Shown: one piece after another, positions 17,934 to 28,996 of the stretch
How the letters are laid out: the number at the start of each line of letters is the position of its first letter
How positions within the stretch are numbered: position 1 is the stretch's first letter
Assembly: GCF_017982655.1 (NCBI RefSeq)
Contig: NZ_JABXYX010000053.1
Coordinates: 1-49,083 of the forward strand
DNA length: 49,083 bases
Direction of reading: 5' to 3'
Source: Brasilonema sp. CT11
GTDB lineage: Bacteria; Cyanobacteriota; Cyanobacteriia; Cyanobacteriales; Nostocaceae
The notes under the pieces: generated by a model
What the model was told of the DNA's origin: nothing
Database searches by the model: none
What the model saw: the letters and a program-made list of their open reading frames with translations, nothing else
Made by a program: the position numbers and the translations under genes

Positions 17934-20702
17934 CTATTGAAGAGAAGAAGTGGAGGAAAAGTAAGTAATTAAGTAATTTATATATGCTTCCAACTCTTCA
18001 GCAATATTATCAGACAATTTGTTCGATACCATCTCTCGATTTATGAAATTAAATGCTGCTGCATAAGCACTATCGGGTAGTAACGGTGTGATCTCAACTT
18101 CACCCAGAGGTATAGGCATACCAAGGTTAAGGCTGTAGCAGAGCCAATCGATATAGTCGTCTATATTGCCGTGGAAGCGTTTTATTTTCTCCTGTGAGTC
18201 AGCAGATCCACCAGGAAAAGTTAAACTAGAGTCTGTAGCTAGAGCATAGTCAGCAGATGCTTTCACGAGTGTTTCTCGATTCCTATCTAACCATTCTGCC
18301 GCTATTTTGGAAGCTTGCATACGTTGTTCAAAACGCTCTATGGTTTTCAAACCATCTGCTACTTTCTGGTGTAATTCAGCCATTACCTTGAAATTACTTT
18401 GTATCTTGAAATTATTTGGTATATTGAAATTACTTTGTACTGTTTCACGAATTGTTTCTATTGATTTTTCACAGTCTTTAATTTTTTGAAATTCTGCATA
18501 AAAACTGCCATTGTTATTCGCTTCTGAAGAATGAGCTTCTGCTGCTTGTATTTTCTTATTAACCAATCTCTCCACTTCTTGAACCTGCTTACGGTAGTTA
18601 TCAATCTCATTAAAGAAGTTATTGAGCAAAGCTGTTTTATCCTGTTGATAAGCATCGCTTTGCTGGTAAAATTCCTTGGCGGCAGAATCGAAATCTGGTT
18701 CCAGTTCTTGCCATTTCTCCCGCACTTTAACCAGCAATCCACCCATCATTAAATTCTCATTCTTTCGCTCCCTCTGCCACTGCCGCAAGTGATCTTCCAC
18801 TCTGTCAATTAATCGCCGCAGTTCTCGATTTTCCTCACACCATTCATCAAACCGCTGCCAAGCTTCCATCAAAGCTTCATGTGCTAAATCAACCCAAGCT
18901 TCTCCTTGCTGTTCTTCTTGCCCAGTTACCAATAAGCGTCCTTCAATCAACTCATCTAAAACATCACTAATTACGTTGTCATCTCCAATGGCTAACAGTT
19001 TGGCTCTGGGTTGTCGTTGTCTGGTATCCTTTTCTGCCTCACCTGTTCGCACCAGCTTCAAAAATATTCGCTTAACCCATTCCTGCTCATGCAGGGTAAA
19101 ACTTTGATAAATTGCTTCGGCGTGACGATCCAGCGCACCAATGACGCCACCCATCACCCGATACTGCTCAACTGTTAGCTGATGTTTTTGGTTGTCTCGT
19201 TTCTCCCAAAGTTCTGTTAGGGCAAACTCTAACAGTGGCAAACATCCCTGCTCTTTACCCACATCTTGCATAATCTCTCCCAGCAACCCATCCTCAAAGT
19301 GATAACCTTGGAGGGCTGCTGGGGATGCGATCGCCTGTTCCAATTCTCCCCCTACCAACGGCGGCATATACACTGCCTGATTTTGAATCAGTTGAGTCAG
19401 CGATGGATAGCTCAAACAGGGTTCGAGAAAATCTGCCCGCATTGTGGTGACAATTGCCAACCTCTTACAAACAGAGCAATTTGTCAACAGTTCAAGAAAT
19501 TTGCGTCTCTCCTCTTCCTTGGGACAAAGAGTAAACACCTCTTCAAATTGATCCACAATTAATAAGAAACTCTCTGAACCAGGGAGACGTTCAATTACAC
19601 GATGCAAGCCATCTGGGGAATTGTGGATAAAATCATAAAGCTGTTGAATTTCTCTCGGACGCTGAAAAAATGGCTCAAAGGCTGCTCTCAATTTCGCCAA
19701 TGGCTCTATTCCTGGTTTAATTGGCTCTAAGACTCGCCAGCCATTCTTTTCCAACTGCGGAATCAAACCCGCACGCACTACGGAAGACTTACCACTTCCC
19801 GACGCGCCAATTATCGGGACAAACTGCGCCTGAGCAAGTTTTTGTAAAATGTCCTCAACAACCTTGTTACGACCAAAGAAGAATTGAGCATGCTGCTTGT
19901 CAAAAGCTTCCAAACCTCGATAAGGACACTCCTCACGCACAACCGCAGTAACCACCGGATTCTTTGGCGGATACCAAACCAGAGAAATTGACCTTCCTCC
20001 GCCCATGTATATTGGTTCTTGTCCACTGTGCTTGAGTTCGCGTGATACAAAGCTAAACAAGTCGTTGGCGTTTACTTCACCAGTCTTTTCATCAGCTCTA
20101 TCGTGAGATAATCCTTTCAGAACTGCTTGAGTAAAAATGCCTCCTTCGACATCTTCCCGTGCTCTTTCAAATTCACGAGAGGCGGTTATCAAACAGTAAT
20201 CCGTTTTGCTGTTGAAAACGGGGAAACTTGACCTGAGAAAACTTTTTTCTAGAAAAGAACCAGCATAGCAGCAGTCAAGCAGTACCACTAAACTAGTAAG
20301 CTCAGATTTGCGGATTAAATCGTTGAAGTCGTCAAAGGCGATCGCATTCTGCCCATCACCGGTACAATCAGAAGTTGCCAGATAGCCCTTTTGCTTACCT
20401 GTCAGCGTTGGTGCTTCAAATCCATGTCCAGCAAAATAAATCAGTGCTTTGTGATCTTTTGCTTTTTCCAGCAGAAACATCCTCAATACTGAACCCAGTT
20501 CCTTACCAGTTAACTTTTTGTCCGGGGCGACACGCCAGCAATTTTCACTCTCGACTAGCTTACCTGGTAACGGCTGAACTTTAAAGCGACCGTGTTCACG
20601 GAGTACCTGTGCTATGCTTTGTGCATCAGTGACAGCCTTTGGCAGCTGCTGTGTGAAATTCTTATAGTTAGCAATGCCAATCACTAAGGCGTATCCATCC
20701 AT
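17934..20702 (-). CDS. Caspase (metacaspase)-nSTAND1 NTPase fusion protein
   Basis: The 922-residue protein joins a caspase-fold peptidase (about 1-245) to an nSTAND1-type P-loop ATPase (about 258-640). Catalytic His93 lies in YFAGHGF and catalytic Cys145 in LLDCCYAGSF, so the peptidase looks active. The linker CPYRGLEAFDKQHAQFFFGR (259-278) is the hallmark preceding nSTAND1. Walker A is GASGSGKSS (299-307) and Walker B/sensor is LLIVDQFEEVF (380-390). Instead of WD40 or TPR repeats, the C-terminus is a charged coiled-coil region (about 640-820) and a helical end with FHGNIDDYIDWLCYSLNLG. Proteins of this design are proposed signal-activated proteases in conflict or programmed-cell-death systems. 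It is divergent, with 76 bp between starts, from the Trypco1-like gene at 20779. Confidence 0.92.
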   Translation of the reverse strand: MDGYALVIGIANYKNFTQQLPKAVTDAQSIAQVLREHGRFKVQPLPGKLVESENCWRVAPDKKLTGKELGSVLRMFLLEKAKDHKALIYFAGHGFEAPTLTGKQKGYLATSDCTGDGQNAIAFDDFNDLIRKSELTSLVVLLDCCYAGSFLEKSFLRSSFPVFNSKTDYCLITASREFERAREDVEGGIFTQAVLKGLSHDRADEKTGEVNANDLFSFVSRELKHSGQEPIYMGGGRSISLVWYPPKNPVVTAVVREECPYRGLEAFDKQHAQFFFGRNKVVEDILQKLAQAQFVPIIGASGSGKSSVVRAGLIPQLEKNGWRVLEPIKPGIEPLAKLRAAFEPFFQRPREIQQLYDFIHNSPDGLHRVIERLPGSESFLLIVDQFEEVFTLCPKEEERRKFLELLTNCSVCKRLAIVTTMRADFLEPCLSYPSLTQLIQNQAVYMPPLVGGELEQAIASPAALQGYHFEDGLLGEIMQDVGKEQGCLPLLEFALTELWEKRDNQKHQLTVEQYRVMGGVIGALDRHAEAIYQSFTLHEQEWVKRIFLKLVRTGEAEKDTRQRQPRAKLLAIGDDNVISDVLDELIEGRLLVTGQEEQQGEAWVDLAHEALMEAWQRFDEWCEENRELRRLIDRVEDHLRQWQRERKNENLMMGGLLVKVREKWQELEPDFDSAAKEFYQQSDAYQQDKTALLNNFFNEIDNYRKQVQEVERLVNKKIQAAEAHSSEANNNGSFYAEFQKIKDCEKSIETIRETVQSNFNIPNNFKIQSNFKVMAELHQKVADGLKTIERFEQRMQASKIAAEWLDRNRETLVKASADYALATDSSLTFPGGSADSQEKIKRFHGNIDDYIDWLCYSLNLGMPIPLGEVEITPLLPDSAYAAAFNFINREMVSNKLSDNIAEELEAYINYLITYFSSTSSLQ

Positions 20703-22211: not shown

Positions 22212-22545
22212 ACAGCTTGGCTCGCAGTGCAAGTTTCATCTTATATATGATCGATGTCTTTGCGTCAGCTTGCTCCTCCGTTATAATGATTGCATTCTCA
22301 CACGACTTGTACACCGTCAGATAAACTCACACCAACGACGATTAATGTCTGCCAGTGCCAATCGTGAGATTATTGCTAACCATAGAGCACAACAGTACTG
22401 AACCATCTCCAATAGTTGAGTTATCTCCCGCCTCCAAAGAACCGTGAAAGACGATCTTATGATCTTCTCACACCCTCAAGAGCACGGAAAGTAACGCGGT
22501 TTTCTATTCTCAATTTTGCCAATGATAATTGATGAACCTTCACCA
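22212..22545 (-). pseudogene. Decayed paralogue of the gamma-CA-like beta-helix gene
   Basis: The plus-strand text from about 22212 to 22545 aligns by eye with about 24173-24530, that is with the last 110 or so codons of the intact gene at 24216-25367 plus its downstream flank (both contain agcttggctcg followed by a drifted stretch and then gcttgctcct). Read on the minus strand, broken pieces such as EGSSIIIG, NRVTFRALEG and HGSLEAGDNSTIGDGSVL correspond to EGSPIIIG, DRVTFHALKG and HGPLEVGDNLTIGDDAVL in the intact protein. Frameshifts, stops and a deletion of roughly 35 nt separate these pieces. The metal-ligand His of the FHAL motif is Arg here. The upstream (5') half of the gene is missing. 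Confidence 0.85.
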
Positions 22546-24215: not shown

Positions 24216-25367
24216 TCATTTCAAGGCGTCTGCTTGCTCCTGCTTCGTGATAACTGCATTATCTGGGACTTGTACACCATCACGTAGAGTCACATCAACA
24301 ACCAATGCCCCAGTTCCAATCGTCACATTATTGCCAACCTTAGAGCGAAATAGTACTGCATCATCTCCAATAGTCAGGTTATCTCCTACCTCTAAAGGAC
24401 CATGAATAACAATATTATCATTTGTGTCTAGGTTGTTGCCGATACGAATGCTAGTACCCTTAAGGGCATGGAAGGTAACACGGTCTTGAATCTTAGCACT
24501 ATCGCCGATAATAATTGGTGAACCTTCATCAGCACGAATTGAGGTGCGCCGTCCAACAATACTATTGTTTCCTATGCGCACGTCGCCAACAATGCGAGCA
24601 AATTCTTCAAGCCGTATGTTTTTACCAAGAGTGGGCTGAACAGGCTGAGGATTCCAAGAAGTTCTTGGTGCAGGGGTGACTCCAGTTACAGCGTCGTATC
24701 CCTGTTGTTTATAAAGTTCGCTGTAGTTTTCGGCAAACTCCTCATTGACTTCCAACACACCTTTTTGGAATTTTGAATTCGCCTCTGTCTTTAAAGGGAG
24801 CGCATCTGCTTGCGCTTGCGTCGTAATAACTGCCCCGATTGGCACTAAGCGGTCTTTGCCGATACGCACATTAGATAGTTTTGCACCATGTAATACAAAA
24901 GCACCATCCTCTAACACCACGTTATTGAGATCGGCAAGGAAACCTATGAAGGTGAAGTTGCCAATTTTTGAGTTCTTAATCTTTGCTTGATGGGCAATGC
25001 TCACTTGTTTACCGGTACTACTTGAGAGTTTACCGCACTTTGATGCAGGAGCTTGTTGGTTACGCAACGCCAAGAATAAAATATTGTCTTGCAGGTTGGT
25101 TTCACTGTTAATGCAAATACGGGTATCAGGATCGGCTTGCAGAGTCGTATTGCTAGCAATAAAAACTTTCTGTCCTACCGAAACATCACCAAATAGTTCG
25201 ACCAAGGGACTAATAAAGCTAGAGTTGACCACGACATTGAACGGTCGAAACAGGCTAAACAAGTTGCTTTTTTCCGCAGAGATAACAACTTCCCCCAAAG
25301 TGAGAACAAATAAGAGAATGCCTATGATTATAGGCATCTGAAATTTCTTACTAAATGTCCTATGCAT
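24216..25367 (-). CDS. Secreted two-domain left-handed beta-helix protein, gamma-carbonic-anhydrase-like
   Basis: The 383-residue protein has an N-terminal signal or anchor helix (about 11-30) and two hexapeptide beta-helix domains (about 50-190 and 247-383) joined by a linker with NWx-like Pro-rich text (about 230-246). Each ends with the same AVIT(T/K)Q(A/E)QADAL segment, indicating internal duplication. Domain 2 resembles CcmM/Cam gamma-CA: Arg278, Asp280, Glu281, Gln293, Asp295 and His300 (FHAL) and His322 (IHGP), but Asp317 replaces the ligand equivalent to Cam His117. Domain 1 keeps a His at that position (AHQA, His126) but lacks the other two. It could be an extracytoplasmic carbonic anhydrase or a non-catalytic scaffold. 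A degraded copy lies at 22212-22545. Confidence 0.85.
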   Translation of the reverse strand: MHRTFSKKFQMPIIIGILLFVLTLGEVVISAEKSNLFSLFRPFNVVVNSSFISPLVELFGDVSVGQKVFIASNTTLQADPDTRICINSETNLQDNILFLALRNQQAPASKCGKLSSSTGKQVSIAHQAKIKNSKIGNFTFIGFLADLNNVVLEDGAFVLHGAKLSNVRIGKDRLVPIGAVITTQAQADALPLKTEANSKFQKGVLEVNEEFAENYSELYKQQGYDAVTGVTPAPRTSWNPQPVQPTLGKNIRLEEFARIVGDVRIGNNSIVGRRTSIRADEGSPIIIGDSAKIQDRVTFHALKGTSIRIGNNLDTNDNIVIHGPLEVGDNLTIGDDAVLFRSKVGNNVTIGTGALVVDVTLRDGVQVPDNAVITKQEQADALK

Positions 25368-27547: not shown

Positions 27548-28996
27548 ATGCTGGGAAGAACGCTCCGGGGGCGCTACGAAATTATAAAATTTTTGGGAAC
27601 AGGGTTTAGTGAGACTTATCTGGCTCTAGATAAAGACTTACCTGGCAAACCATATTGCATAGTTAAGCAACTCAAGCCCCAGCTTTCCGATCCGTTTTTG
27701 TTGCAAACAGCCACACGTTTATTTGAAACGGAAGCACAAGTCCTGTATAAGTTGGGTAACCATGACCAAATTCCGCGACTTTCAGCGCATTTTCAGGAAA
27801 ATGGAGAATTTTATTTAGTTCAAGAATTTATAAACGGTGATATTCTAAGCGAAGGTATTATACCAGGTAAACAGTGGAGTGAAGAGAAAGTTATTAATTT
27901 TTTGCAAGATATTTTAAAAATATTAGAGTTTGTTCATCAACAGAGTATTATTCACCGAGATATTAAACCTTCAAATATTATTAGACGTACCTCAGATGGC
28001 AAATTAGTTCTGATTGACTTTGGGGCAGTCAAAGAAAAAATCAGTACCTTGAAACCTAACTCTCAAGGAGAGACAGTCCCTATTGGCACTCCTGGCTATG
28101 TGCCAAGTGAACAAGCTATTGGCAATCCAGAATTTAACAGCGACATTTATGCTTTGGGTATCACTGCTATCCAAGCCCTGACAGGAATTTTGCCTAAACA
28201 ACTCCCAAAAAATCCAGAGACTCATGAAGTTGTTTGGCGAAATTTGGTACAAGTTAAACCTCAGCTAGCAGATATTTTAGACAAAATGGTGCGTTATGAT
28301 TCTCGTAAGCGCTATCAGTCAGTGAATGAGGTTTCGCAAGCGCTTTCAAGCTTAGTCACAAAAAAGAAATTAAAGAAGTGGCGAAATACAAAGATTGCCT
28401 TAGTTTTGGTGTTGGTTGCTCTTGTCCCTTGTATAGTTGTGTTGGTTCCAGAAATACGAGATAAAATATTCGCTTCATCACATAATGATTCATCGTTAAC
28501 TAAAACGCCATTTTTGACTTATGATAGTTCCAACTATTTTATGATTAGGATGAAATATCCTAAATCTTGGAAAATTCAAAAGATAGAAGATAGATTTACG
28601 GGTGATGTTGCTAAATTCTTTCTTCCTCAAAACAATAGTTCAAATTCTTTTCAACCAGAACTATCTGTCGAAATGCAAGACTTGCAAAAACCTATTTTAT
28701 TACCTGATTATACAAATTCAAAAGTTAATGAAATAACCCAGTATTCAACAAGTCCTAGAATTCATGAATCGCATCCAGCTAAATTGGCAAATCTTCCAGC
28801 ACATGAAGTGATTTACACAGGAAAGCAAGAGCAATTTAATATTAAGAGGATGGCAGTTTGGACAGTAAAAGATAGCAAAGCATACATCGTGACTTACACA
28901 GCAGAAGAAAGTCAATATGATACGTTTTTAGAAACTGCACAAGCAATGATGAATTCGTTGAAGATTCGCGAAAGTGCGTCCACATCACCCAAGTAA
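27548..28996 (+). CDS. Ser/Thr protein kinase with C-terminal PsbP-like domain
   Basis: The 482-residue protein is a Hanks-type kinase: glycine-rich loop LGTGFSETYL (16-25), Lys40 in CIVKQL, HRDIKPSN (136-143), DFG (157-159) and the activation segment GTPGYVPSEQ. A basic juxtamembrane stretch (TKKKLKKWRN, 271-280) leads to one membrane helix (about 282-301). The extracytoplasmic part (about 325-475) resembles the PsbP/Mog1-like fold seen in many cyanobacterial secreted proteins (FMIRMKYPKSWKI, then AVWTVKDSKAYIVTYTA). It would phosphorylate cytoplasmic targets in response to an external or lumenal signal; the target is unknown. It is preceded by repeat-rich DNA and is monocistronic. Confidence 0.92.
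   Translation: MLGRTLRGRYEIIKFLGTGFSETYLALDKDLPGKPYCIVKQLKPQLSDPFLLQTATRLFETEAQVLYKLGNHDQIPRLSAHFQENGEFYLVQEFINGDILSEGIIPGKQWSEEKVINFLQDILKILEFVHQQSIIHRDIKPSNIIRRTSDGKLVLIDFGAVKEKISTLKPNSQGETVPIGTPGYVPSEQAIGNPEFNSDIYALGITAIQALTGILPKQLPKNPETHEVVWRNLVQVKPQLADILDKMVRYDSRKRYQSVNEVSQALSSLVTKKKLKKWRNTKIALVLVLVALVPCIVVLVPEIRDKIFASSHNDSSLTKTPFLTYDSSNYFMIRMKYPKSWKIQKIEDRFTGDVAKFFLPQNNSSNSFQPELSVEMQDLQKPILLPDYTNSKVNEITQYSTSPRIHESHPAKLANLPAHEVIYTGKQEQFNIKRMAVWTVKDSKAYIVTYTAEESQYDTFLETAQAMMNSLKIRESASTSPK

Follow-up and report, generated by a model that had tools for sequence, protein, structure and literature searches.

A fused two-domain gamma-carbonic-anhydrase-like protein of cyanobacteria with complementary half-sites in its two domains

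The carbonic anhydrases (CAs) of the gamma class form trimers in which, according to structural accounts, one subunit gives two of the zinc-binding histidines and its neighbour the third (PMC4519908, PMC7199487). Cam of Methanosarcina thermophila (PDB 1THJ, 1QRG) is a homotrimer of one-domain subunits with three such sites, and its activity is reported to require the trimer (PMC5746736). Its Asn73, Gln75 and Asn202 are assigned to a hydrogen-bond network used in the first part of catalysis, and Glu62 and Glu84 to proton transfer (PMC4519908). A gamma-CA domain also forms the N-terminus of CcmM from beta-carboxysomes, which is reported to carry RbcS-like domains and to be part of the carboxysome (PMC10096703). 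Among the gamma-CAs of Acanthamoeba complex I, AcCa1 is reported to keep His117 only and AcCa2 to keep His81 and His122; AcCa2-class proteins, unlike those of the AcCa1 class, have a conserved N-terminal region (PMC2900272). The gammaCA/gammaCAL heterotrimer of plants is described as having one conserved site (PMC7567890). In the beta class, the carboxysomal CsoSCA has duplicated, fused CA domains, one of them reported to be without zinc residues (PMC10614612). We found no fused or two-domain gamma-CA among the top matches listed in the open-licence literature, and no family specific to such a fusion in NCBIfam or Pfam.

We divided the gamma-CA site into two sides using published interface lists (PMC8000050, Table 2) and the zinc ligands by chain (PMC7199487, PMC4519908). 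In the lists for the Persephonella and Thermus enzymes, one side of the interface comprises the N-terminal segment and the equivalents of Cam Arg59, Asp61, His81 and His122, and the other comprises the equivalents of Gln75, Asp76 and His117 and the C-terminal helix with the Asn202 position (PMC8000050, Table 2). For the Thermus enzyme the same source describes this helix and the N-terminal segment as touching across the interface. The conversion of the lists to Cam numbering by way of anchor residues is our own, as is the assignment, from position in the repeat, of Trp19 and Glu62 to the first side and of Asn73 to the second. As used here, the A-side is the N-terminal segment, Arg59, Glu62, His81 and His122, and the B-side is Asn73, Gln75, His117 and the C-terminal helix with Asn202.

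The gene described here lies in a 49,083-nucleotide stretch of Brasilonema sp. CT11 DNA, the whole of which was analysed and is called the window. Its features, in window coordinates, are as follows.

24216..25367, minus strand: whole gene for a fused two-domain gamma-carbonic-anhydrase-like protein, probably exported (open reading frame with ATG start, 383 amino acids)
25275..25367, minus strand: signal-peptide-like N-terminal segment, residues 1-31, with cleavage near residue 30 or 31 by composition only
24702..25235, minus strand: domain D1, residues 45-222, the putative B-side donor, with Asn91, Gln93, Asp94, His126 and the helix with Asn208
24729..24785, minus strand: interdomain helix, residues 195-213, equivalent to the Cam C-terminal helix, with Asn208 at Cam Asn202 (limits taken from a low-confidence AlphaFold model)
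24219..24701, minus strand: linker and domain D2, residues 223-383, the putative A-side donor, with Trp238, Arg278, Asp280, Glu281, His300 and His322
24990..24992, minus strand: His126 of D1, equivalent to Cam His117 (by alignment and conservation, as for the next five)
25071..25073, minus strand: Leu99 of D1, at the Cam His81 position
24975..24977, minus strand: Lys131 of D1, at the Cam His122 position
24468..24470, minus strand: His300 of D2, equivalent to Cam His81
24402..24404, minus strand: His322 of D2, equivalent to Cam His122
24417..24419, minus strand: Asp317 of D2, at the Cam His117 position
25113..25115, minus strand: Cys85, invariant (25/25), possible disulfide with Cys111
25035..25037, minus strand: Cys111, invariant (25/25), possible disulfide with Cys85

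The chain runs from the signal-peptide-like N-terminus through D1 and a helix and linker to D2. Cam and CcmM in the PDB match both domains, with a best whole-protein E value of 3.3e-33. Residues 231-382 best match the CcmM of PDB 3KWD/3KWC, residues 118-215 being a second matching stretch, and D1 alone (residues 34-222) matches CcmM with an E value of 3.7e-20 and Cam with one of about 1e-14. The two domains are 29% identical to each other over 144 columns (E 2e-12). The open reading frame, the matches of both domains and the similarity between them bear out the initial annotation, made from the DNA letters, in calling this a fused two-domain gamma-CA-like protein. An AlphaFold monomer model, built on an alignment of 17 rows, is of low confidence (pLDDT 48.6, pTM 0.36) and shows the beta-helix fold as a strand pattern only.

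Judged by its sequence, the fused protein belongs with the gamma-CAs: it scores 58.7 bits against Pfam Hexapep (cut-off 27), and its best PDB matches are gamma-CAs. It falls below the cut-offs of the Cam subclass (NCBIfam NF040597, 179.5 bits versus 380) and of CcmM (NF053794, 206.3 bits versus 550), and it ends after D2, without RbcS-like domains. The Cam acidic loop is absent from D2.

Conservation was assessed in 25 two-domain sequences, including that of the window and its 97% relative (L053); 23 come from cyanobacteria (the window counted), one from a metagenome-assembled genome (MAG) labelled Tatlockia and one from a Deinococcus deserti plasmid. Neither domain holds all three zinc histidines of Cam. 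D2 has those of positions 81 and 122 only, and D1 has that of position 117 only, yet the protein as a whole has all three, conserved. His126, whose conservation had been named beforehand as the point on which a split site might fail, is invariant (25/25), as are His300 (25/25) and His322 (24/24, L039 being cut off there). At the other ligand positions, residue 317 is Asp in 23 of 24 sequences and Asn in L052; residue 99 is Leu in 20, Ile in four and Ala in one; and residue 131 is Lys in 16, Arg in four, Glu in three and Val in two. Alignments with Cam and CcmM agree with the initial annotation in placing His300, His322 and Asp317 at Cam His81, His122 and His117, and Leu99, His126 and Lys131 at Cam His81, His117 and His122. 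Its list of further D2 residues held for Arg278, Asp280 and Glu281 (each 25/25) and for Asp295 (24/25), but the Gln that it gave as residue 293 is residue 294, and 293 is Ile. At this position, that of Cam Gln75, Gln occurs in the window alone, with Glu in 23/25 and Ala in 1/25. The window's D2 also has Lys292 (2/25) and has Ile321 where all other rows with letters at that place have Phe.

The split reaches beyond the ligands to second-shell residues, the interface surface and the terminal elements. The A-side is complete in D2 except for Glu84: the equivalents of Arg59, Asp61, Glu62 and His81 occur in 25/25 sequences, that of His122 in 24/24 and that of Trp19 in 24/25. On its own A-side D1 has Pro in place of Glu62 in 25/25 and lacks the N-terminal segment and the histidines of positions 81 and 122. 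The B-side is complete in D1, where the equivalents of Asn73, Gln75, Asp76, His117 and Asn202 are found in 25/25; in D2, Asn73 (0/25) and His117 (0/24) are gone, Gln75 remains in 1/25 and the helix is absent. In the alignment D2 starts with an N-terminal segment of Ser-Trp-Asn (Phe for Trp in D. deserti) and ends before the helix. D1 ends in the helix and has no N-terminal segment, its rows being cut at the start of the beta-helix and the part before that being signal-like and variable. With D1 preceding D2, the helix of the His117 donor is thus joined to the N-terminal segment of the His81/His122 donor.

We refer to the D2 A-side and D1 B-side as the live faces, and to their counterparts as dead. 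The dead faces are not bare: that of D1 still has the Arg59 equivalent in 20/25 and the Asp61 equivalent as Asp or Glu in 25/25, and that of D2 has the Asp76 equivalent in 24/25. The idea that Lys131 and Asp317 hold the dead interface together by a salt bridge is not supported: of the rows with Glu131 (L005-L007) or Val131 (L045, L052), all but L052 keep Asp317. As a control, 35 distinct single-domain rows from chosen loci (34 CcmM-type and one Cam-type) all keep Arg59, Asp61, Glu62, Gln75, Asp76, His81, His117, His122 and Asn202, with Asn73 in 33/35 and Trp19 in 34/35. At the Cam Glu84 position, 33 of the 35 have Glu, in contrast to an invariant Lys303 in D2 (25/25).

The surface around the sites was compared over 24 interface columns in 23 two-domain rows, retention being counted as residues found in 11 single-domain rows. 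Retention is 0.65 on the live faces and 0.19 on the dead ones, a difference reached by one in 10,000 random column sets. Leaving out the three zinc ligands gives 0.60 versus 0.21 (Wilcoxon p 0.003), and the 98 non-interface columns show no such gap (D1 0.57, D2 0.62). On a hand-made list of catalytic and interface residues, 12/13 are kept on the live faces versus 3/13 on the dead (p 0.001), a contrast that is weaker without the zinc ligands and Gln118 (8/9 versus 3/9, p 0.05). The live-face columns lacking retention are Cam 79, 120 and 138 in D2 and 54, 55 and 153 in D1. The dead D2 face is acidic, with Glu294, Asp295, Asp317 and an Asp at the Cam Met135 position (Asp in 23/23 D2 rows, Phe in 23/23 D1 rows). 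That of D1 is mixed, mostly polar at Cam 138 and 140 and hydrophobic at 57, 79 and 81. Mean Kyte-Doolittle values over the interface columns are -1.40 for dead and -0.57 for live faces. The conservation of Asp317 (23/24) and Glu294 (23/25) means that the D2 face termed dead still serves some purpose.

The N-terminus has a basic, then hydrophobic segment followed by small residues in 24/25 rows, L052 being the weak case. Starts are uncertain for L005-L007, L044 and L052; in the first four of these, the first residue follows from the alignment offset and is not the Met of a start codon. This composition fits a Sec signal peptide, as the initial annotation had anticipated, and the protein is probably periplasmic or outer in location. 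The only cysteines beyond residue 35 are Cys85 and Cys111 in 24/25 rows (L052 has two more), and a disulfide between them is possible. Between the window and L036, dN/dS is 0.075 for D1 and 0.059 for D2; among the 12 comparisons made, dS was inestimable in seven for D1 and four for D2. The closest pairs do not give low values, with 1.06 for D1 against L053 on very few changes and 0.48 for D2 against L034 on small counts.

We consider it probable that the protein is a gamma-CA, that it is exported and that each chain has a single His3 zinc site, lying between its own D1 and D2. Two diverged gamma-CA domains would have been joined as D1-helix-linker-D2, with D2 keeping only the A-side and D1 only the B-side, and would thereby form one complete His3 zinc site where the D2 A-side meets the D1 B-side. 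These faces would meet most simply within one chain, and the joint would link two elements, the helix of the B-side and the N-terminal segment of the A-side, that are in contact across the interface of a known gamma-CA trimer. The other two half-sites would be dead, their surface residues having drifted and the terminal elements serving them being missing. By inference, the fused chain would work like one third of a Cam trimer, with one zinc site between two domains. Such a protein would be exported, bind zinc, pack in cis and hydrate CO2, with an inorganic-carbon or pH-exchange role outside the plasma membrane. The initial annotation had suggested a site between unlike domains, and the invariance of His126 and the matching split of second-shell residues, interface surface and terminal elements support it in part; assemblies would then have fewer but complete sites. 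Against a zinc site between D1 and D2 we count the loss of Glu84, the conserved Asp317 and Glu294, the ionic residues kept on the dead faces, the live columns lost, the dN/dS of the closest pairs and the low pLDDT of the model. Arabidopsis gamma-CA1-3, which keep all three histidines, also count against it, attempts at showing their activity being reported as failed (PMC2900272).

Geometrically, a chain that uses its own D1 for its own D2 would leave a third place in the ring that no likewise paired chain could fill. Either it stays vacant, or two rings are built from the mixed domains of three chains. Polarity on the dead faces would favour the former; the latter still has some room, since Arg77, Asp79 and Asp295 are retained and the D1 face is hydrophobic in part. 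That the two-domain chain alone forms one zinc site as a trimer-free gamma-CA, its third place empty and its dead faces now surface, is a tentative reading that we hold possible without favouring it. The mostly polar D1 positions 138 and 140, the Asp of D2 at Cam 135 and the more hydrophilic dead faces speak for it; the hydrophobic D1 positions 57, 79 and 81 speak against it, as does Cam itself, reportedly active only as a trimer (PMC5746736).

The loss of Glu84 in favour of an invariant Lys303 would also suit a non-enzymatic protein, structural or CO2/bicarbonate-binding like the gamma-CA-like subunits of mitochondrial complex I and possibly with a vestigial zinc. In line with this, inactive gamma-CA variants are reported to complement a plant mutant (PMC7567890), and no activity could be demonstrated for homotrimers of Arabidopsis gamma-CA2 (PMC2900272). 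We think this unlikely, since the domains retain metal ligands and second-shell catalytic residues in a complementary way, dN/dS against L036 is low, and activity is reported for a comparably divergent Emiliania huxleyi gamma-CA (PMC2900272). The conservation of Asp317 and Glu294 raises another alternative, in which D2 domains form a ring that binds metal at 2-His-1-carboxylate sites, each made of His300 and His322 from one D2 and Asp317 from its neighbour, and D1 forms a separate, metal-free ring. Two trimer-forming domains in tandem would assemble most simply as stacked homotrimeric rings. Yet this arrangement leaves unexplained why D1 holds His126, Asn91, Gln93 and Asn208 in 25/25 sequences despite having lost Glu62, His81 and His122, and the Asp of D2 at Cam Met135 argues against a Cam-type D2-D2 interface; we consider it quite improbable. 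That the protein is a hexapeptide-repeat acyl- or acetyltransferase merely resembling a gamma-CA, as the generic Pfam Hexapep assignment and weak matches to many transferase families could suggest, is most improbable in view of the best matches being CcmM and Cam and of the conserved gamma-CA catalytic set.

A scan of genome contigs gave 19 named loci with relatives, and the spread of the fused gene is patchy. Matches reaching both domains occur in 15 of 388 cyanobacterial genomes (the window's own counted), and in two of these 15 (G273 and G037) the gene is broken into two pieces. Within the window's family, 8/217 genomes match at E 1e-40, with the match in one of these truncated at residue 307; four other families have matches in 3/3, 3/63, 4/36 (including G273) and 3/42 genomes. 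Many of the named carriers belong to genera that we take to be terrestrial or desiccation-tolerant. Plasmid 3 of Deinococcus deserti VCD115 carries a 70% identical copy, annotated as carbonate dehydratase. In an unrooted full-length tree of 24 rows, this copy sits on a long branch and groups with Phormidesmis, Myxacorys, Chlorogloea and L046 in a six-row set with support of 100/99. The presence of the fused gene in two phyla would most simply be explained by transfer. The MAG contig labelled Tatlockia, a relative of Legionella, holds a near relative of the Chlorogloea gene (L046, 3538-4680) with shared neighbour families c34-c38, and is possibly a mis-binned cyanobacterial contig. In a domain tree (13/23 rows per domain, bootstrap unsettled), D1 and D2 each form one clade on a very long stem, so the tree does not tell which single-domain group was ancestral to the duplication.

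Neighbouring open reading frames of at least 90 codons were clustered for 20 loci, with up to 6-8 kb per side, and for window positions 12000-38000. No other frame clustered with the fused gene, the only second members being the fragments into which the gene is broken in L049 and L051; a third-subunit gene next door was rejected, there being no gamma-CA partner gene found beside the fused gene at these loci. Neighbour genes vary among lineages, and viral contigs gave one weak 25% match only.

Several further sequences lie near the gene or resemble it. About 1.8 kb from the intact gene, at window positions 22261-22464 (minus strand), a second copy has left a decayed, stop-containing piece of its D2 end, about 53% identical, and a remnant of the same end lies near the gene in Scytonema tolypothrichoides (L034, 8885-9097). 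Stretches with the D2 end only occur at L019 1507-1752 (genome G224, 75.6% identity) and G171:C35:162744-162938 (78%); no whole-gene match is listed for either genome, and the stretches are perhaps remnants after loss. Genome G037, where the fused gene is split in two open reading frames (L018), also encodes a single-domain gamma-CA of the Cam type (L062), in which Glu84 and the three histidines are all present; it scores 293.6 bits to NF040597, the next match among those listed scoring 202.7. The window gene at 17934-20702 (minus strand) encodes a protein with a caspase domain and an nSTAND1 NTPase; its C-terminal residues 785-913 exceed the Pfam Phycobilisome cut-off (27 versus 22.2 bits), an odd partner; PADLOC reports the caspase only. 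The gene at 27548-28996 (plus strand) encodes a Ser/Thr kinase with a PsbP-like domain at its C-terminus.

If the fused protein does form one zinc site between its own domains, it would be a natural case of an enzyme ring of identical subunits reduced to a single fused chain through complementary half-site loss, and it would give a testable prediction of how gamma-CA residues divide between the half-sites. The external CAs of cyanobacteria, those described being of the alpha (EcaA) and beta (EcaB, CahB1) classes (PMC10096703), would also gain a gamma-class member.

The fused protein resembles Cam in its hexapeptide repeats and in having, across its whole length, the three zinc histidines and the equivalents of Asn73, Gln75, Glu62 and Asn202. 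Unlike Cam, with its like subunits and three sites, it fuses unlike domains that have half the set each; its D2 lacks Glu84 and the acidic loop, and it is probably exported. Its best homologue elsewhere in the window's genome is the N-terminal gamma-CA domain of CcmM (G000:C309), but CcmM rows keep both half-sites, and the fused protein stops after D2 and starts with a signal-peptide-like segment. CsoSCA offers a parallel in its fused CA domains, although it is of the beta class, with another fold, and its catalytic domain keeps the zinc residues, whereas here each domain would give part of one site. In the plant gammaCA/gammaCAL heterotrimer the single site sits between two like subunits, unlike the arrangement proposed here. 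AcCa1 and AcCa2 of Acanthamoeba split the same ligands, but in trans and, as in other mitochondrial complex I gamma-CA pairs, as separate subunits of a eukaryotic membrane complex, in contrast to one bacterial chain. The replacement of Asn73 and Gln75 in AcCa2 was counted against activity by its authors (PMC2900272); by the half-site logic of the fused protein, these two residues should come from AcCa1.
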